Positions 24,633 to 34,440 of a stretch of DNA of 64,000 bases are shown here, piece by piece. The number at the start of each line of letters is the position of its first letter. Within the stretch, counting starts at the first letter, position 1. The stretch spans positions 62,001 to 126,000 of the forward strand of contig JACPOI010000036.1 of assembly GCA_016185015.1 (NCBI GenBank), written 5' to 3'. Source of the stretch: Burkholderiales bacterium. GTDB lineage: Bacteria > Pseudomonadota > Gammaproteobacteria > Burkholderiales > Burkholderiaceae_C. Below the pieces are notes generated by a model. It made no database searches and was not told where the DNA came from. It saw only the letters and a list, made by a program, of their open reading frames with translations. The position numbers were made by a program, and so were the translations under genes.

Positions 24633-25550
24633 TCAGTTGTTCTTGTTGGTGAACCAGAAGCTGACGATGGGGGCGGTCGGGTCATCGAAGGAGGCGCCCA
24701 GCGCCATTTCGCCCTTGTCCAGCAGCACGCATTCCTGGCGGCGCAGGGAGATCACGGCCGAGGAGCCGGCAAAACGCACCCAGGTGCCGTAGCTGCTGAT
24801 GTCCGATAGCACGAAGAGCTCGCCGCGACGGTCCAGGCGGGCGTGCAGGCGCGAGACGCGCGGGTCGAGCACGGCAAACTGGGCGTCATTGCCGCGGCCC
24901 AGGAAGACCGGCATGTCCATGGCCTCGAACAGGATGTTGTGCTCGCGCCAGGTCAGCTCGATGGTGCTGGGCAGGCGGCTGCTGGGCGCGCCGACCGTCT
25001 CCAGGCCGGCCTGCATGGTCATGATCTCGGAGGTGCTCTCGCGCTGCCAGTCGATGCGGTAGACGGTGATGGGCTCGCTTTTGCCCCGGATGTCCATGGG
25101 CCCGAGGTTGCGGTAATTGATCTCGCCGTCGTTGTAGAGCGCTTCGATGACGCTTTCGGACGCGAAGATCTGCTCGGCACCCGACAGGTCGCTCAGGCGC
25201 GAGGCCATGTTGACGGCGTCGCCGAAGCAGTCGCCGTCCTGTTCCACCACCTCGCCGCGGGCCAGTCCCACCTTGACCTGCATCCTGCTCTGGCCCGGCA
25301 GGCTGCTGCTGCGTTCGCGCTGCATGCGCTGCATCTCGACCATGGACAGCACGGCAGCCTGGTTGTCGGAAAAGGAGGCCAGTACCCCGTCGCCCAGGTA
25401 CTTGATGACACGCCCGCCGCGCGCCTGGAAGGACTTGCCTATCCAGTGGGTGGTGCGGGTCACCAATTCAGCCGCCCTGGCATTGCCCAATGCCTCGAAC
25501 AAGCCGGTGCTTCCGGTCAGGTCGGCAAAGACGATGGTGAGGACGGCCAT
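24633..25550 (-). CDS. class III adenylate/guanylate cyclase with C-terminal FHA domain
   Basis: 305 aa; MAVLTIVFADLTGSTGLFEALG... GDGVLASF ... GDCFGDAVNMASRLSDLS; FHA-like DAQFAVLDPRVSRLHARLDRRGELFVLSDISSYGTWVRF. Confidence 0.92.
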   Translation of the reverse strand: MAVLTIVFADLTGSTGLFEALGNARAAELVTRTTHWIGKSFQARGGRVIKYLGDGVLASFSDNQAAVLSMVEMQRMQRERSSSLPGQSRMQVKVGLARGEVVEQDGDCFGDAVNMASRLSDLSGAEQIFASESVIEALYNDGEINYRNLGPMDIRGKSEPITVYRIDWQRESTSEIMTMQAGLETVGAPSSRLPSTIELTWREHNILFEAMDMPVFLGRGNDAQFAVLDPRVSRLHARLDRRGELFVLSDISSYGTWVRFAGSSAVISLRRQECVLLDKGEMALGASFDDPTAPIVSFWFTNKNN

Positions 25551-25825
25551 GCGATCGGAATGTTGGAGAGGATGAGTGTGCTTATTATGCCGGCCCCGCC
25601 ACGGGGCGTGGACGCTGCCATGGAGGCCAAGCTGATGCGTGTCAAGTATACGGGTCGTCCGGTTTCAGGCCGGCCGTGCGGCGCCCGGCGCAGGCGCTGC
25701 CGGCTCAGCGGCGCGGGGCATGGGCGGCGCTGCCACCGTGCGCAAAATGCCACGCCGGGGCGTGCCGCTGTGTAAGATGTGCGGTGTAGCGCCAACAGGC
25801 GTTGCAGCACAGGGGACACAAGAAC

Positions 25826-26371
25826 ATGGGCATCAATCCTGCCATCGTCCAGAACATCGCCGAGCGGGTGCGGGCCGAGGTGTTGCCCCAGCGCGCGGCA
25901 TCGGCGCTCAAGCTTGACCCGGCCATCATCCAGAAGATTGCCCAGAAGGTCCCGATCTTCGCCGGCATGAGCCAGCCCTGCCTGCTGGACACGCTGGCCA
26001 CCGGCGAACACTTCACGGTCCAGGCCGGGGAAGCGGTGTTCCGCGAAGGCGACATGGGCAACTCCTTTTATGTCCTGATCGCCGGCGAAGTGGTGGTCGA
26101 GAAGATACGCGACGGCAAACCGGTCGAGCTGACACGCCTGGGCCCGGGAGAGTGCTTCGGCGAGATGGCCCTGGTCGGCAACGACGTGCGTTCGGCCACG
26201 GTGCGCGCCACCGGCCCGCTGGTAGCCATGCGCTTCTACCGCGAACTCATCGATGCCAACCCCGAAAGCGCGTCGGCCATCTACCGCAACATTGCCCGCA
26301 TCCTGGCGGGCCGCCTGGGCGAGTCCAGCCTCATGCTGGCCGACCTGAAAAAGCGCGACAGCGCAGCCTGA
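25826..26371 (+). CDS. cyclic nucleotide-binding domain protein
   Basis: Start MGINPAIVQNIAERV; PIFAGMSQPCLLDTLATGEHFTVQAGEAVFREGDMGNSFYVLIAGEVVVE...GPGECFGEMALVGNDVRSATVRA. Confidence 0.92.
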   Translation: MGINPAIVQNIAERVRAEVLPQRAASALKLDPAIIQKIAQKVPIFAGMSQPCLLDTLATGEHFTVQAGEAVFREGDMGNSFYVLIAGEVVVEKIRDGKPVELTRLGPGECFGEMALVGNDVRSATVRATGPLVAMRFYRELIDANPESASAIYRNIARILAGRLGESSLMLADLKKRDSAA

Positions 26372-26376
26372 GTTCC

Positions 26377-27342
26377 TCATGCGGACGGGGCCGGCGAGGG
26401 CTGGCCCGTACTCCACAGGGCCAGCAGACGGCCGATGTCTTCCAGCCGGGGCACCGGGGTCACGCCCTCGGGGGGGCGGCGTTGCAGCACCGGGTGGCTG
26501 CCACCGGCCCAGATTTCTATATCGGCCGGCAGCCGGCTGCGCAGATCCTGCAGGCCGCGCTGCAGCAGCTGCGCATTGAAGGCCGGGCTGAAGCTCAGGC
26601 CCACGATCTGTGCGCGGTTGGCTTGCGCCGCGCGCACGATCTCGGCCACGGGTGTCTGGGCCCCGAGCGAGACGCATTCGCAGCCTTCCAGAACCAGGGT
26701 GATCTCGGCCATCAGCAGGCCCAGCATGTGGGATTCCTGCGGAAAGGTCGCCAGCAGCACCCGCGGGCGGCCCGGGCGCGGCATGGAGGCCATGCTGCCC
26801 AGGGCGCTGCGCAGCACGGCGGTCACGCTCTCCGTATACATATGTTCTTCGAACACCTGGATCTCGCCGCGCACCCAGGCTTCGCCCACCTGGGCGTTCA
26901 GCGGCGCCAGCAGTTCGGTCAGGAAGCGGCCCAGGCCCAGGCGCAGCACGGCCTGGTTCAGGGTGCGGCGCAAGGCCATCACCTCGTGCTGGCGCACCAG
27001 GTCCAGGACCGCCTGCAGTTCGGGCGTGAGGGGGGGGTGTGTCGCGACCGGGGCCGAGTCCAGCAGCAGTTGCTGCAACTCGGCCAGCGACAGGGGCACC
27101 ACGCGCCCGGGGCGCTGGCCGGCCCCCAGCAGGCGCGCGATCAGGCGCAGGCGCTCGACCTGCTCGGACGGGTAGAGGCGCTCGTCGAAGGCGTCGCGCA
27201 CGGGCTGCGGGAAGCCGTAACGACGCTCCCAGACGCGCAGCGTGTCCTTGGAAAGACCCGTGTCGCGCTCCACCGCGGCGATGGGCAGGTCGGTGCCGGC
27301 CGTCGCGCCTGTCATGCCTGACTCATCTGTAAGGTCTTTCAC
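26377..27342 (-). CDS. MerR-family regulator with B12-binding domain (CarH/LitR-like photoreceptor candidate)
   Basis: 321 aa; MerR HTH (IAAVERDTGLSKDTLRVWERRYGFPQP); W-x9-EH (WVRGEIQVFEEH) and E-x-H-x-x-G (ESHMLG) B12-site motifs. Confidence 0.9.
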   Translation of the reverse strand: MKDLTDESGMTGATAGTDLPIAAVERDTGLSKDTLRVWERRYGFPQPVRDAFDERLYPSEQVERLRLIARLLGAGQRPGRVVPLSLAELQQLLLDSAPVATHPPLTPELQAVLDLVRQHEVMALRRTLNQAVLRLGLGRFLTELLAPLNAQVGEAWVRGEIQVFEEHMYTESVTAVLRSALGSMASMPRPGRPRVLLATFPQESHMLGLLMAEITLVLEGCECVSLGAQTPVAEIVRAAQANRAQIVGLSFSPAFNAQLLQRGLQDLRSRLPADIEIWAGGSHPVLQRRPPEGVTPVPRLEDIGRLLALWSTGQPSPAPSA

Positions 27343-27508: not shown

Positions 27509-28801
27509 ATGAAGGTCGCCATCGTCGGCTCCGGCATCTCCGGCCTGGCCGTGGCCCACGCTTTGCAGGGCCATGCCGAGCTGACCCTGTTCGAGGCGGG
27601 GGACTATTTCGGCGGTCACACCCACACGGTGGACGTGACCCTGCCCACCAACCATGGGTCCGTCACCTGGGGTGTGGACACCGGTTTCCTGGTTTTCAAC
27701 GAGCGCACCTACCCCAACCTGATCCGCCTGTTCGGCGAGCTGGATATCGCCACCGCCAAGACCGACATGTCCTTCTCGGTCCAGGCCGGTGTGGCTGGCC
27801 GGCGGCTGGAATGGAACGGCGCGAGCCTCAACAGCGTGTTTGCCCAGCGCAGCAATCTCCTGAACTGGCGCTTCCTGCGCATGCTGCGCGAGGTGTTGCG
27901 TTTCAACAAGCTGGCCACGACCCTGGCCGAGGCCGGGGCCGATGCGCAGCTGGCCCAGCCCCTAGGCGAGTGGCTGGACGCGCAGCGTTTCAGTACCGAA
28001 TTCCGTGACTGGTACTTCCTGCCCATGATGGCCTGCATCTGGAGCTGTCCGACGGCGCAGATGCTCGAGTTCCCCGTGGCCACCATGATCCGTTTCTGCC
28101 ACAACCATGGCCTGATCCAGGTGAATGACCGGCCGCAGTGGTGGACGGTGACGGGCGGCGCGCGCCGATACGTCGAGAAGATCGTGGCCCGCATCCCCGA
28201 CAAGCGTCTCAACACCCCCGTGCGCGCCATCGAGCGCGACGACCACGGTGTGACGCTCACCACCGACCATGGCGCCCAGCGTTTCGACCAGGTCGTGCTG
28301 GCCACCCATTCCGACCAGGCCCTGGCCTTGCTGCGCCGGCCGTCGGCCGAAGAAGACCGGGTGCTGGGCGCCATCCGCTACCAGGCCAACCGCGCCGTGC
28401 TGCACACCGATGCCTCCGTGCTGCCCGAGCGTCGCCTGGCCTGGGCCGCCTGGAACTACGAACGCGCGCCCGCCAGCGGCCAGGAAAGCAGCCGCGTCTG
28501 CCTGCACTATCTGTTGAACCAGCTGCAGCCGCTGCCCTTCGAGCAGCCGGTGGTCGTCAGCCTCAACCCGCTGCGCGAGATCGCACCGGAGCATGTGCTG
28601 GGCGACTACGCGTACGCGCACCCGGTGTTCGACCTGGGGGCCATTGCCGCACAGAAGGAACTGCCCAGGTTGCAGGGCCGCCAGCGCACCTGGTACGCCG
28701 GCGCCTGGACCGGCTACGGTTTTCACGAAGACGGCCTCAAGTCCGGGCTGTCGGTGGCGCAGCAACTGCTGGCGCGCATGGCCTATCGGGAAGCCGCATG
28801 A
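27509..28801 (+). CDS. FAD-dependent amine-oxidase-type oxidoreductase
   Basis: MKVAIVGSGISGLAVAHALQGHAELTLFEAGDYFGGHTHTVDV; family commonly next to DUF1365 and CFA-synthase genes. Confidence 0.92.
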   Translation: MKVAIVGSGISGLAVAHALQGHAELTLFEAGDYFGGHTHTVDVTLPTNHGSVTWGVDTGFLVFNERTYPNLIRLFGELDIATAKTDMSFSVQAGVAGRRLEWNGASLNSVFAQRSNLLNWRFLRMLREVLRFNKLATTLAEAGADAQLAQPLGEWLDAQRFSTEFRDWYFLPMMACIWSCPTAQMLEFPVATMIRFCHNHGLIQVNDRPQWWTVTGGARRYVEKIVARIPDKRLNTPVRAIERDDHGVTLTTDHGAQRFDQVVLATHSDQALALLRRPSAEEDRVLGAIRYQANRAVLHTDASVLPERRLAWAAWNYERAPASGQESSRVCLHYLLNQLQPLPFEQPVVVSLNPLREIAPEHVLGDYAYAHPVFDLGAIAAQKELPRLQGRQRTWYAGAWTGYGFHEDGLKSGLSVAQQLLARMAYREAA

Positions 28802-29598
28802 GCCAGCCCGACGTGCCCCTGATCGGTCGCGGCCAGGTGCGCCACACGCGCCTGCGCCCGAAGCGGCACGCTTTTGCCTACCCCACCTTCTTTCTCATGT
28901 TGCCGCTGCGCAGCATGCGCCGCTATGGCAGCGGCGAACTCGCGCACAACCGTGCCGGCTGGCTCAGTTTCCATGACAGCGACCACGGCGACGGCCGCAG
29001 CGCTGCGCAGGGCGGAGCGCTGGGCTGGATGGATGAGTTGCTGCGGCGCGAAGGCATAGAGGATGCCGACGGCGAGATCTGGCTGCATTCCTACCCGCGG
29101 GTGCTGGGCTACGCCTTCAAGCCGGTGAGTTTCTGGTACTGCCACCGCGCCGACGGCACCTTGCGTGCCATCGTGGCCGAGGTCAACAACACGTTTGGCG
29201 AGCGCCACTGCTACCTGCTCGATGCGCCGCGTTACGGCCAGGAGCAGCGCGCCAGCAAGGTCTTCCACGTCTCGCCCTTCTGCCGCGTGGAAGGCGAGTA
29301 CCGCTTCCGTTTCATGCGCACCGAGCGTGCCGGCATGGAGCGCACCGTCGCCTGCGTCGACCTCATGGATGCCCAGGGCCTGTTGCTGCAGACCAGTGTC
29401 AGCGGTGTGCTGCAGCCCTATACCGCGCTGAGCGCGCGCCGTGTGCTGTGGCGCCAGCCGGCCATGACGCTGGCGCTGATTGCCCATATCCATTGGCAGG
29501 CCGTGCGCCTGTGGCTCAAGCGCGTGCCCTTTTTCGCCAAGCCGGTGCCTCCCGCCGACTTCGTCACCCGTTCCATCCCTCCAGCCTCCACGCCATGA
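28798..29598 (+). CDS. DUF1365 family protein
   Basis: Start MSQPDVPLIGRGQVRHTRLRPKRHAFAYPTFFLMLPL; YPRVLGYAFKPVSFWYCH; ATGA overlap with upstream gene. Confidence 0.92.
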   Translation: MSQPDVPLIGRGQVRHTRLRPKRHAFAYPTFFLMLPLRSMRRYGSGELAHNRAGWLSFHDSDHGDGRSAAQGGALGWMDELLRREGIEDADGEIWLHSYPRVLGYAFKPVSFWYCHRADGTLRAIVAEVNNTFGERHCYLLDAPRYGQEQRASKVFHVSPFCRVEGEYRFRFMRTERAGMERTVACVDLMDAQGLLLQTSVSGVLQPYTALSARRVLWRQPAMTLALIAHIHWQAVRLWLKRVPFFAKPVPPADFVTRSIPPASTP

Positions 29599-30818
29599 AC
29601 ACCACCACGGCTTCCCGCCTCGTGCTGCCGCGCAGCGCACCCGCCAGTGCCCGCTCCGTCCTGCGCCTGCTCGAACGACTGCAGCATGGCACGCTCTCAC
29701 TGCAACTGCCCGATGGCACCCAGCTGCGCTACGGCAACGGCGAGCAGCCCGCCGCCAGCCTGGTGCTGCACGACTGGGCCGTGTTCGGCGCCACGATGAA
29801 GTCCGGCGATATCGGCTTCGCCGAAAGCTACATGGCCGGCCAGTGGACGACCTCCGACCTGGCCGCATTGCTGCGCCTGTTCATCCGCAACCGCCAGGCG
29901 CTGGAGGACGTGATCTACGGCAGCTGGCTGGGCAGCCTGTTCTACCGCCTGCGCCACCTCTTCCACCGCAACACCAAGACCAACAGCCGCAAGAACATCC
30001 ACGCCCATTACGACCTGGGCAACGCCTTCTACCGCCTGTGGCTGGACGGCACCATGAACTACTCCTCGGCCTGGTTCGAGGGCAACCTGGCCGGCGACAT
30101 GGTCGCCGCGCAGCAGGCCAAGGTGCGGCGCGCGCTGCGCCTGGCGGGCGTGCAGCCGGGCAACCGGGTGCTGGAGATCGGCTGTGGCTGGGGTGCGCTG
30201 GCCGAGATGGCCGTCACCGAATTCCAGGCCTCGCTCACCGGCGTCACGCTGAGCACCGAACAGCTGGGCTGGGGCCAGGAGCGCATGAGCAATCTGGGGG
30301 CCGAGGCGGCCGCGCGCGCCGACCTGCGCCTGCAGGACTACCGCGACATCAACGACGGCCCCTATGACGCGATCTGCTCCATCGAGATGGTCGAGGCCGT
30401 GGGCCAGGAATACTGGCCCACCTATTTCCAGAGCGTGGCGCGCCTGCTCAAGAGCGGCGGCCGCGCCTGCATCCAGAGCATCGTGATCGAGGACCGCCTG
30501 TTCGAGCGTTACCTCCACTCGACCGATTTCATCCAACAGTACATCTTCCCCGGCGGCTGCCTGCCGAGCCCGGCCGAATTCCGCCGCCAGGCGCAGGCGG
30601 CCGGCCTGAAGGTGGTGGATGAGCTGTCCTTCGGTCCCGACTACGCCGAAACCCTGCGTCGCTGGCGCCACCAGTTCCTGGCGGAGCGCAGCCGCATCCT
30701 GCAACTCGGATTTGACGAAAGGTTCATGCATCTATGGGAGTTCTACCTCGCCTATTGCGAAGCGGCCTTCGACGAAGCCAGTATCGACGTGATGCAGTTC
30801 ACGCTACAAAAAGCGTAG
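29595..30818 (+). CDS. cyclopropane-fatty-acyl-phospholipid synthase family methyltransferase
   Basis: NSRKNIHAHYDLGNAFYRLWLDGTMNYSSAWF; VLEIGCGWGALAEMAV; ATGA overlap with upstream gene. Confidence 0.95.
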   Translation: MNTTTASRLVLPRSAPASARSVLRLLERLQHGTLSLQLPDGTQLRYGNGEQPAASLVLHDWAVFGATMKSGDIGFAESYMAGQWTTSDLAALLRLFIRNRQALEDVIYGSWLGSLFYRLRHLFHRNTKTNSRKNIHAHYDLGNAFYRLWLDGTMNYSSAWFEGNLAGDMVAAQQAKVRRALRLAGVQPGNRVLEIGCGWGALAEMAVTEFQASLTGVTLSTEQLGWGQERMSNLGAEAAARADLRLQDYRDINDGPYDAICSIEMVEAVGQEYWPTYFQSVARLLKSGGRACIQSIVIEDRLFERYLHSTDFIQQYIFPGGCLPSPAEFRRQAQAAGLKVVDELSFGPDYAETLRRWRHQFLAERSRILQLGFDERFMHLWEFYLAYCEAAFDEASIDVMQFTLQKA

Positions 30819-31363
30819 CAACTGTCGTCGGATTCGTAATGCTGCTGGCTGCCGCGCCGGTGCTGGCCGAGATCGTGCCGCCGCCGGCGCGTGTCGCCTC
30901 GCCCCTGCTGGCGCAGCCGCGCCAGGTCGGCAGCGGCCTGTACAGCTGGTGGGGCTTCGACGTCTACCAGGCCAGCCTGTGGGCCGAGCCCGGTTTCGAT
31001 GCCGCGGCCCTGCCGCGCCAGCGTTATGCGCTGGAGTTGCACTACCGACGCGACTTCAAGGGGCGCGACATCGCCCAGCGCTCCATCGACGAAATGCGTC
31101 GCGTCGGGTCTTTCAGCGACGCGCAGGCGCAAGCCTGGCTGCAGGCCATGGTGGCGGTCTTCCCGGACGTGTCCAACGGCGACCGCCTGACCGGCGTGAA
31201 CCTGCCGGGCCGCGGCGCGCAGTTCTACGCCAACGGCAAACCCGCGGGCGAAATCGCCGACCCCGAGTTCGCCCGCCTGTTCTTCGGCATCTGGCTGTCG
31301 GAGCAGACCTCGGCACCCAAGTTGAGGCTGGCCCTGCTGGGCCAGTCCGCGAGCGCCCGCTGA
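30734..31363 (+). CDS. chalcone-isomerase-like periplasmic/secreted protein (start uncertain)
   Basis: VGSGLYSWWGFDVYQASLWAEPGF...LHYRRDFKGRDIAQRSIDEMRRVG; real start probably near 30800-30839. Confidence 0.8.
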   Translation: MGVLPRLLRSGLRRSQYRRDAVHATKSVATVVGFVMLLAAAPVLAEIVPPPARVASPLLAQPRQVGSGLYSWWGFDVYQASLWAEPGFDAAALPRQRYALELHYRRDFKGRDIAQRSIDEMRRVGSFSDAQAQAWLQAMVAVFPDVSNGDRLTGVNLPGRGAQFYANGKPAGEIADPEFARLFFGIWLSEQTSAPKLRLALLGQSASAR

Positions 31364-31376
31364 GCGGCAGGCCTGC

Positions 31377-32648
31377 ATGACGACCTCTTCCACGCTCTCG
31401 GTCGCGCAAGCCTGGCGTTATGGCCTCATGGGCCTGCCGCTGGCGTTCGTGGCGTTGCCGTTGTATGTGCTGCTGCCCAACCACTATGCGCGCGAGTTCG
31501 GCGTGCCGCTGGCCACGCTGGGCGCCTTGCTGCTGGCCACGCGCCTGGCCGATGCGCTGATCGATCCGCTGCTGGGCCGTCTGAGCGACCGGCTCTACCG
31601 CCGGTCCCCGGCCACGCTGCTGGCCTGGGCCGCGCTCGCGTGCGGGCTCGTGGGGGCAGGTTTTGCGTTGCTCTTCTTTCCTCCGCTGCGCAGCGGGGAT
31701 GGCCTGCTGGTCGTCAGCGCCGTGCTGCTGATGCTGACCTACGCCAGCTTCAGCGCGGTGACCCTCTCGCACCAGGCCTGGGGTGCCTTGCTCGGGGGTG
31801 ACGCCTTGCGCCAGAGCCGCCTGGTGGCCTGGCGCGAGGGCCTGGGCCTCGTTGGTGTGCTGCTGGCGTCGGTGGCGCCCGTGCTCTGGGGGCTGGACGT
31901 CATGGTCGGCCTGTTCTGGGGCACCTTGCTGCTGGGCTGGCTGGCCTGGCGTGCGGCGCCGCGTCCTGCGGCCGACGCCATCACGGGCACGGTGGCCGAG
32001 GCCGGCGATCTCTGGCAACCCTGGCAGCGCGCGCCCTTTCGCCGCCTGCTCGCGGTCTTCATGCTCAACGGCATCGCCAGCGCGGTGCCGGCCACGCTGG
32101 TGCTCTTTTTCGTGCAGGACCGGTTGCAGGCGTCGGCGTCCATGGAGCCGCTCTTTCTTGGCAGCTACTTCCTGAGTGCAGCCTTGTCCATGCCCCTTTG
32201 GCTTGCCGCCGTGCGCCGCCTCGGCCTGGCCCGCAGCTGGCTGGTCGGCATGGGGCTGGCGGTGGCCGTCTTCGTCTGGGCCAGCACCCTGGGCAGCGGG
32301 GATGCCTGGCTCTTCATCGCCATCTGCGTGCTCTCGGGCGCCGCTCTGGGTGCCGATCTCGTGATGCCTGGCGCCATGCTGGCCGGCCTGATTGCGCGCG
32401 CCGGCGATCTGGGTCGCACGCAAGGCGCCTACTACGGCTGGTGGAACTTCGCCACCAAACTCAACCTCGCCCTGGCCGCCGGCCTGGCCCTGCCCCTGCT
32501 GGGTTTCTACGGTTATGCGCCCGGCGCGCGCGAGCCCCAGGCCCTGCAGGCGCTCACCGTCGCCTACTGCCTGCTGCCCTGTGTGCTCAAGCTGGCGGCG
32601 GGGGCCCTGCTTTATTCATCGTTCATTCACCGCAAAGGCTCATCATGA
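31377..32648 (+). CDS. MFS transporter (glycoside-pentoside-hexuronide-type)
   Basis: 423 aa, multiple TM segments; LADALIDPLLGRLSDRLYRR. Confidence 0.88.
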   Translation: MTTSSTLSVAQAWRYGLMGLPLAFVALPLYVLLPNHYAREFGVPLATLGALLLATRLADALIDPLLGRLSDRLYRRSPATLLAWAALACGLVGAGFALLFFPPLRSGDGLLVVSAVLLMLTYASFSAVTLSHQAWGALLGGDALRQSRLVAWREGLGLVGVLLASVAPVLWGLDVMVGLFWGTLLLGWLAWRAAPRPAADAITGTVAEAGDLWQPWQRAPFRRLLAVFMLNGIASAVPATLVLFFVQDRLQASASMEPLFLGSYFLSAALSMPLWLAAVRRLGLARSWLVGMGLAVAVFVWASTLGSGDAWLFIAICVLSGAALGADLVMPGAMLAGLIARAGDLGRTQGAYYGWWNFATKLNLALAAGLALPLLGFYGYAPGAREPQALQALTVAYCLLPCVLKLAAGALLYSSFIHRKGSS

Positions 32649-33205
32649 AACGTCGTCTGCTGCTCACCGGCGCCGCCGCGCTTGGCGCCACCACCCTGGC
32701 CGGCTGTGCCTCACCCACCGTCGCCGACTACGCCCAGGAGAAACCCGAGCTCGACCTGCGCCGTTATTTCAACGGCACGGTGGATGCCTACGGTGTCTTC
32801 ACCGATCGCTCGGGCAAGGTCGTCAAGCGTTTCACCGTGGTCATGAACTGCAGCTGGAGCGGCGAGAGCGGCCGCGAGGTCGGCGTGCTCGACGAAGATT
32901 TCACCTACTCCGATGGCACGACACAGAAGCGCATCTGGACGCTGCGTCGCCGCCCTGGGGTGGGCAAGCAGGGGCTCTATGTCGGCACCGCCGCCGACGT
33001 GGTGGGCGAGGCCAATGGCGAGGAACGCGGCAACGCCTTCTACTGGGCCTACAACCTGGACCTGCCGGTGGACGGGCGCAACATCGTCGTACATTTCGAG
33101 GACTGGATGTACCAGATGAACGACCGCGTCATGCTCAACCGCGCCACCATGAGCAAATGGGGTGTGCGCCTGGGTGAAGTCACCCTGTCCTTTAGCAAGC
33201 GCTGA
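32645..33205 (+). CDS. DUF3833 family lipoprotein
   Basis: Start MKRRLLLTGAAALGATTLAGCASPTVADYAQEKPELDLRRYFNGTVDAYGVF; lipobox LAGC. Confidence 0.88.
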   Translation: MKRRLLLTGAAALGATTLAGCASPTVADYAQEKPELDLRRYFNGTVDAYGVFTDRSGKVVKRFTVVMNCSWSGESGREVGVLDEDFTYSDGTTQKRIWTLRRRPGVGKQGLYVGTAADVVGEANGEERGNAFYWAYNLDLPVDGRNIVVHFEDWMYQMNDRVMLNRATMSKWGVRLGEVTLSFSKR

Positions 33206-33208
33206 ACC

Positions 33209-34015
33209 ATGTCCCTCAATCCTCCCCTGCGCCACTGGGCCGGCAAGACGGTCTGGCTGGTCGGTGCCTCTAGCGGCATCGGCCAGGCCTGCGCCGACCT
33301 GCTGCACGCGCAAGGCGCCACGGTGTTTGTGTCTGCCCGCAAGGCGGATCAGCTCGATGCCTGGGTGGCCGCGCATCCGGGCGCCGATGCCCAGGGCCGG
33401 CCGCGCGCCGTGGCCCTGGCGCTGGATGTCACGGACCGCCGCGCCCTGCAGCTGGCCAGCGACGCTGTCGCCGAGCGCGGTCCGCTGGACCTGGTGGTGT
33501 ACTGCGCCGGTTATTACCTGCCCGTCGATGCCGTGGCCTACAGCCTGGAGGAAATGCTGCGTCACGAACAGGTCAACTACGTGGGCGCCCTCTACCTGCT
33601 GGAAGCCGTTTTGCCCCACCTGAAGCGGCAGGCCGCGGCGGGGCAGGGCGGGCACCTGAGCCTGGTCAGCAGCGTGGCGGGTTTCCGCGGCCTGCCCAAG
33701 AGCCTGGCCTACGGGCCGACCAAGGCTGCGCTCATCAACCTGGCCGAAGCCCTCTACCTGGACCTGGGGGCCCTGGGCCTGGGCGTGAGCGTGGTCAACC
33801 CCGGCTTCGTCGAGACGCCGCTGACCGCGCAGAACGATTTCAAGATGCCTGCGCTCATCACGCCGGACGTCGCGGCGCGCGAAATGCTGGCCGGCTGGGC
33901 GCGCGGCGACTTCGAATTGCACTTCCCCAAACGCTTCACGCGCTGGCTCAAGTTCATGCGTCTGTTGCCCTATCGTCTCTACTTTCCCCTGGTTAGAAAG
34001 GCCACCGGAGCATGA
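33209..34015 (+). CDS. SDR-family oxidoreductase
   Basis: KTVWLVGASSGIGQACADLLHAQGA; YGPTKAAL active site. Confidence 0.92.
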   Translation: MSLNPPLRHWAGKTVWLVGASSGIGQACADLLHAQGATVFVSARKADQLDAWVAAHPGADAQGRPRAVALALDVTDRRALQLASDAVAERGPLDLVVYCAGYYLPVDAVAYSLEEMLRHEQVNYVGALYLLEAVLPHLKRQAAAGQGGHLSLVSSVAGFRGLPKSLAYGPTKAALINLAEALYLDLGALGLGVSVVNPGFVETPLTAQNDFKMPALITPDVAAREMLAGWARGDFELHFPKRFTRWLKFMRLLPYRLYFPLVRKATGA

Positions 34016-34440
34016 GCCATGCCGTCGAAAAGATCGCCGTTTTCTTTGAAACGCTGACGCCGCAGAGTGTCGAGCGTTTTCCCGAGTTCTATACCGAAGA
34101 CGCGTATTTCAAGGACCCCTTCAACGAGGTGCGCGGCATCCTGCCCATCCAGCGCATCTTCCGCCACATGTACGTCAACCTGCACGAGCCACGGTTCGTC
34201 GTGACGGGCCGCGTGGTCGAGGGCGAGCAGGTCCTGCTGACCTGGGATTTCCATTTCCGCTTCCGCAAGTTCAGCCCCGAGCAGCCGCAACTCATCCGCG
34301 GCGCCACCCACCTGCGCCTAGCGCAGGACGGGCGCATCCGCTCGCACCGGGACTACTGGGACGCGGCCGAGGAGCTCTACGAGAAGCTGCCGCTGGTGGG
34401 CGGGCTGATGCGCTGGCTCAAACGCCGCGCCAATTCCTGA
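34012..34440 (+). CDS. SnoaL-like / nuclear transport factor 2-fold protein
   Basis: 142 aa; FYTEDAYFKDPFNEVRG...HLRLAQDGRIRSHRDYWDAAEELYEKLPLVG. Confidence 0.87.
   Translation: MSHAVEKIAVFFETLTPQSVERFPEFYTEDAYFKDPFNEVRGILPIQRIFRHMYVNLHEPRFVVTGRVVEGEQVLLTWDFHFRFRKFSPEQPQLIRGATHLRLAQDGRIRSHRDYWDAAEELYEKLPLVGGLMRWLKRRANS

Follow-up and report, generated by a model that had tools for sequence, protein, structure and literature searches.

A candidate cobalamin-dependent light-responsive regulator of a predicted furan fatty acid operon in Burkholderiales

We analyzed a stretch of 64,000 nucleotides of DNA (the window) from a freshwater-type Burkholderiales bacterium and found a regulator gene that faces, across a paired palindromic operator, an operon predicted to make methylated furan fatty acids. 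Its product is probably a B12-dependent repressor of the class I CarH/LitR type that is released by light and controls both the divergent ufa operon and its own gene, with light sensing as the best inference for its signal. The original prediction of a CarH-type protein linked to a lipid-modification operon gained strong support, for the class I identity, the adenosylcobalamin (AdoCbl)-binding type and the link alike, from homology, fold, motif conservation, synteny and operator sites. We infer cofactor binding, light response, bridging by a tetramer, direction of repression and product identity; among these, repression, bridging and light release are suggested by what its relatives do and by how the boxes are arranged.

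In the proposed mechanism, AdoCbl would be held in the dark between the Trp/Glu/His cap and His205, and the AdoCbl-bound regulator would oligomerize and hold the two palindromic boxes (from 27353 and from 27416) on one face of the DNA, with the ufaD-ufaO-ufaM operon and the regulator's own gene shut off. UV, blue or green light would break the Co-C bond, the oligomer would fall apart or change shape, and the DNA would be released. The operon would then make furan fatty acids, which would quench singlet oxygen in the membrane. If this is true, cobalamin photoreception would reach beyond the control of carotenoids to the furan fatty acids of the membrane, in common non-phototrophic freshwater and soil bacteria. 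The absence of phototrophy genes noted earlier held in a reaction-centre search, which gave no Photo_RC match across the 95.8%-complete assembly. The genome encodes a BtuR-type corrinoid adenosyltransferase and carries a cobalamin riboswitch on the same contig. The other strong B12-binding_2 match in the genome lies within a 956-residue open frame.

Table 1. Features of the regulator, its operator and the divergent operon (window coordinates, or residues of the regulator)
Feature	Position	Strand	Basis or remark
CarH/LitR-type regulator gene	26377..27342	-	domains, homology, predicted fold
MerR HTH of regulator	residues 20-76		
Four-helix B12-binding subdomain	residues 110-178		
Rossmann B12-binding subdomain	residues 194-286		
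Ado-capping motif W156-x9-E166-H167	26842..26877	-	kept in 144/146 homologues
V157, position of Thermus CarH light-state ligand His132	26872..26874	-	alignment, PMC10442372
ExHxxG motif E203-S-H205-M-L-G208, predicted lower axial cobalt ligand His205	26719..26736	-	alignment
GG of B12-binding fold, G280-G281	26500..26505	-	
Operator box 1, TTTGTCTAGGACAAA	27353..27367	.	perfect palindromic consensus, 10 bp upstream of regulator start
Operator box 2, TTTGTCCATGTCAAA	27416..27430	.	single mismatch, 63 bp away from box 1
ufaD-type FAD desaturase (Amino_oxidase domain)	27509..28801	+	Pfam; naming after PMC7380195
ufaO-type furan-forming oxygenase (DUF1365)	28798..29598	+	Pfam; PMC7380195
ufaM/CFA-type SAM-dependent fatty acyl methyltransferase (CMAS)	29595..30818	+	family models
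Chalcone-isomerase-like protein (Chalcone_3)	30734..31363	+	Pfam
MFS transporter (MFS_2)	31377..32648	+	Pfam
DUF3833 lipoprotein-like protein	32645..33205	+	Pfam
Short-chain dehydrogenase	33209..34015	+	Pfam
SnoaL-like protein, last operon gene	34012..34440	+	Pfam

The regulator and its cobalamin site

The regulator gene coincides exactly with one open reading frame, which begins with GTG and encodes 321 amino acids; we regard the start codon as uncertain, the N-terminal ~18 residues being variable and disordered. The MerR helix-turn-helix and cobalamin-binding module originally assigned to it were both recovered by Pfam, with MerR_1 (7e-11), B12-binding_2 (5e-8) and B12-binding (3e-10) all over curated cut-offs. 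The best solved relatives were the LitR/CarH structures of Thermus thermophilus, 3WHP (E 8e-26) and 5C8D (E 1e-25). An AlphaFold model computed from 39 homologues had a mean pLDDT of 92.6, and its top PDB fold matches were the CarH entries 5C8D/E/F, with a TM of ~0.8 across the cobalamin-binding domain. The NCBIfam CarH model was likewise the best hit, yet with 123 bits its score was far under the cut-off of 400 bits, as one would expect of a distant branch.

CarH and class I LitR proteins carry a MerR HTH at the N-terminus and, after it, the two B12-binding subdomains; the regulator has this arrangement, and Thermus CarH (TtCarH) shares all three domains. The retained Rossmann domain sets the regulator apart from class II LitR proteins, which have the four-helix subdomain alone and an adjacent short LOV gene, whereas its own neighbors are a gene for a cyclic-nucleotide-binding protein and the ufa operon. 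The class III LitR of Burkholderia multivorans, which has no B12-binding domain, is also a Burkholderiales LitR with a role in the light response (cited in PMC9758184); its C-terminus resembles no known functional (B12) domain, and it is not the window protein. We classify the regulator as a variant of the CarH kind rather than a canonical CarH, since domains and motifs fit but the bis-His ligand and the direct-repeat operator are absent. Our homologue set comprised 146 regulators, mostly from Burkholderiales. Among the open-access papers searched we found none describing this clade, although it may have been mentioned before, and the regulator apparently belongs to a large undescribed branch of the CarH family.

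The W-x9-E-H, E-x-H-x-x-G and GG motifs that had been reported for this protein are all present (Table 1) and are common to TtCarH, its best match in both sequence and fold. The Trp, Glu and His of the cap and the lower His were together kept in 144 of the 146 aligned homologues; thus, the CarH motifs are not chance resemblances. The published CarH motif is ExHx2G-x41-SxV/T-x22-27-GG (PMC8156234), and the regulator reads ESHMLG-x41-SFS-x27-GG, so that the spacing fits and the third residue of SxV/T, here Ser (SxS), is a small deviation. With regard to the SignatureFinder light signature (GxxW, EH, GxxH, GxxxP), the regulator has GEAW, EH and GAQTP, whereas GxxH reads QESH, which had been overlooked. 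Gln is the commonest residue at this Gly position in the clade (62 of 147 aligned rows).

Also overlooked was the residue after the motif Trp. In Thermus CarH this is His132, which becomes the upper cobalt ligand in light and thereby generates a bis-His state (PMC10442372); the regulator has V157 instead. Among the 146 homologues (a tally that sets TtCarH aside, the sole His in the table being that of TtCarH itself) this position was occupied by Met (61), Ala (39), Leu (20), Val (12), Ile (6), Ser (5) or Thr (3), and in none by His. As the whole clade lacks the bis-His ligand, the canonical output mechanism should not be taken for granted, and these homologues offer a natural test of whether the ligand switch is required for CarH photoactivation.

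The missing histidine is an argument for a different signal. The regulator might sense the AdoCbl level, that is, B12 status, with the holo form repressing, the apo form or a damaged cofactor derepressing, and light being incidental because the bis-His lock is missing. It would fit that Thermus CarH H132A mostly stays tetrameric in light, with tetramer release largely blocked (PMC10442372); the same paper mentions an earlier study that reported disassembly of H132A. However, the light-state His is found in many, not all, CarH proteins (PMC9304148), and Chloracidobacterium CtMerR (8JBS/8JBT), likewise a MerR-type AdoCbl photoreceptor without bis-His, has Arg at the His132 position and still goes from tetramer to monomer in light (PMC11796333). 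The equivalent of His132 is therefore not essential in every family member, and its loss leaves a light response possible, although the light-state chemistry must then differ. CtMerR differs from the window clade in having Arg rather than a hydrophobic residue and in its DNA-binding domain, and is the weaker sequence match. In addition, AdoCbl is photolabile in any such pocket, the operon is of a photo-oxidative kind, and the same operator is found ahead of photolyase genes in relatives. We therefore regard a pure B12-status sensor as unlikely and favor a light-released repressor.

The two exceptions among the 146 homologues (L062 and L072) had lost all four contacts together. Both are intact regulators, in which W is changed to G and EH to QR, and this suggests that they are B12-blind derivatives in the manner of Myxococcus CarA (PMC9304148). 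Their existence would agree with a B12-independent regulator of the CarA or class II/III LitR type, which is cued by oxidative stress or by a separate photoreceptor. A precedent is provided by the class II LitR proteins PplR/PmlR of Pseudomonas, which, via short LOV proteins, control light-induced genes for ufaM, an FAD oxidoreductase, an SDR and photolyase (PMC9758184). However, PplR/PmlR keep only the four-helix bundle of the two B12-binding subdomains and are reported to be B12-independent (PMC9758184), whereas the window protein has both subdomains and keeps every Ado-cap and lower-ligand residue, all strongly conserved, which makes this explanation very improbable for it.

In L062 the ufa operon is no longer adjacent to the regulator. 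In another locus (L087) the regulator gene is split, its DNA-binding and B12-binding parts being ~2 kb apart; judged from sequence alone, the insert is group II intron/reverse-transcriptase-like.

The divergent operon and the paired operator

The neighboring lipid-modification operon proved to be real, with stop and start codons overlapping at 28798-28801, 29595-29598, 32645-32648 and 34012-34015. According to the naming of PMC7380195, the ufaD-ufaO-ufaM genes at the head of the operon (27509-34440) would encode the full methylated furan fatty acid pathway, an identity that had been overlooked. Family models alone do not separate the methyltransferase from CFA synthase, and we assigned it as ufaM-type on the basis of operon context. 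Of the homologous loci, 131 extend 4 kb or more on the side of the operon, and 120 of these keep the divergent ufaD, ufaO and ufaM set. A glutathione-peroxidase-type gene (recognized by motif only) lies between the regulator and ufaD in 61 of 126 loci and is absent from this place in the window. Just beyond the regulator, a protein with adenylate-cyclase-like and FHA-like matches is encoded at 24633-25550(-). The gene for the cyclic-nucleotide-binding protein lies at 25802-26371(+), and several species of the genus have it next to the regulator as well.

Furan fatty acids are part of the response to singlet oxygen (PMC7380195, PMC6852236), and in Rhodobacter and its relatives their genes fall within the core of the singlet-oxygen regulon (PMC6852236). 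In R. sphaeroides, furan fatty acid genes are also controlled against singlet oxygen, by RpoE-ChrR (PMC7380195, PMC6852236); this is a sigma/anti-sigma pair that senses singlet oxygen, in contrast to the predicted cobalamin repressor of the window. TtCarH in turn targets carotenoid genes, whereas the predicted target here is the furan fatty acid genes.

The intergenic region carries two palindromes that had been overlooked. Box 1 is the only perfect site in the genome. The consensus, TTTGTCNNNGACAAA, was found at 53 sites with <=1 mismatch in 52 intergenic regions, versus 0.05 expected from dinucleotide shuffles, and 46 of the 52 regions carry a site at <=2 mismatches. The start-to-start spacing in the window belongs to the commonest class in the clade, 62-64 bp, which accounted for 27 of 33 and 24 of 36 pairs in two pair sets; the remaining pairs were mostly spaced at 21, 31-33 or 53-54 bp, near multiples of 10.5. 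Helical phasing was strong, with Rayleigh R of 0.93 (n=33) and 0.90 (n=36), values that come from related loci and do not amount to a formal test. We considered shared ancestry alone as the origin of the in-phase spacing and rejected it, as pairs outside 62-64 bp were also mostly in phase (R 0.97, n=6, and R 0.80, n=12; related loci, no p-value). In the latter set, the spacings of 29 and 44 are probably chance pairs. In a locus from the same order but outside the family (L230), two sites are 122 bp apart and out of phase.

The known CarH operator consists of tandem 11-bp direct repeats, nnnnTnnACAn, in Thermus, Bacillus and myxobacterial CarH (PMC9304148). The window boxes are inverted repeats at whole helical turns, and we rejected their assignment as the known direct repeats because the TnnACA core fits but the arrangement does not. 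Since position 8 of the box was always A or T in 73 sites, one strand always reads T-n-G followed by ACA where these bases are kept, which is the TnnACA core. The TtCarH half-site core is accordingly found inside each window box on one strand. By this comparison, the boxes have the predicted recognition core in common with known CarH half-sites but arrange it differently, as inverted repeats that are paired and in phase. Such a compact and well-defined operator could serve green-light gene switches.

In many relatives the stretch between the boxes contains a sigma70-like promoter (TTG..., about 17 bp, TANTAT); in the window's genus we found no clear sigma70 match there. MerR family members often activate, and an activator that twists the promoter upon binding, with light or the photolysed cofactor turning transcription on, would be in line with this habit; it is the least probable explanation, as the boxes in relatives flank the promoter rather than lie inside its 19-20 bp spacer and characterized class I CarH proteins are repressors (PMC8156234).

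Candidate sites and side observations in relatives

In the window's own genome, a search at <=1 mismatch gave 7 forward hits versus 6 for the reversed control, and boxes 1 and 2 alone stood out. The photolyase gene of this genome (C60:41975) had no box at <=2 mismatches in its locus. As sites other than these two occur at the reversed-control frequency and the photolyase has no box, we claim no further targets in this genome, where the regulator would have a dedicated target. Across the family, the exact site was present in 32 of 151 genomes, versus 2 genomes for the reversed control pattern. All 32 have a regulator match when compared by eye, a few being partial or weak (e.g. G036).

Relatives have the site ahead of an SDR-photolyase pair (L134, G264, from another family), and in L281 two boxes 74 bp apart precede genes for a photolyase and a photolyase-related protein. 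It also precedes the iscR-iscS-iscU-iscA operon (L265, L266, L268, L270, L278), and further sites were found before chemoreceptor genes, a lipocalin and a sigma-factor gene. An upstream iscR site (<=2 mismatches) was detected in 13 of 55 regulator-bearing genomes versus 0 of 39 without the regulator (Fisher p 6e-4), and in 8 of 50 versus 0 of 39 (p 0.008) after removal of the five loci that prompted the comparison; both p-values are optimistic, given the relatedness of the genomes and the unequal lengths scanned. The iscR region of the window genome itself had no site at <=2 mismatches. These observations suggest light control of Fe-S cluster assembly in several regulator-bearing relatives. 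Tentatively, this large Burkholderiales branch may release DNA in light without the bis-His switch and repress by bridging two same-face palindromes set whole helical turns apart around a promoter; its regulon may take in furan lipids and photolyases, joined in some species by Fe-S cluster assembly.

A conserved RNA of ~100 nucleotides, folded as a three-way junction, precedes ufaD in about 45 of 126 loci, e.g. L043:8392-8495(-), L054:8507-8604(-) and L078:4128-4225(+), and is retained in L062. Compensatory changes were seen at 20 of its 24 predicted pairs, its apical loop is a polypyrimidine, CTCCTCCTCCTCCCTCCCTCC, and in seven loci it had no Rfam match at gathering score. It is possibly a leader regulator, or a stress sRNA with the potential to base-pair with Shine-Dalgarno sequences. 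We rejected it as part of the window system, as neither the window nor its genome contains it.

Two species of the window's genus (L130:6314 and L131:6164) have the exact 15-mer inside a longer inverted repeat beside an MCP chemoreceptor gene, which may be an operator or a terminator. Two more MCP genes have a site nearby (L273 and L280). In another genome of the genus (L135:5843, G254), an operator-like site lies between a B12-binding-domain (PpaA/AerR-like) gene and a PAS-HTH_8 (PpsR/CrtJ-like) gene, and a UbiA-family gene adjoins the pair. From this gene set, some species of the genus are probably phototrophs.
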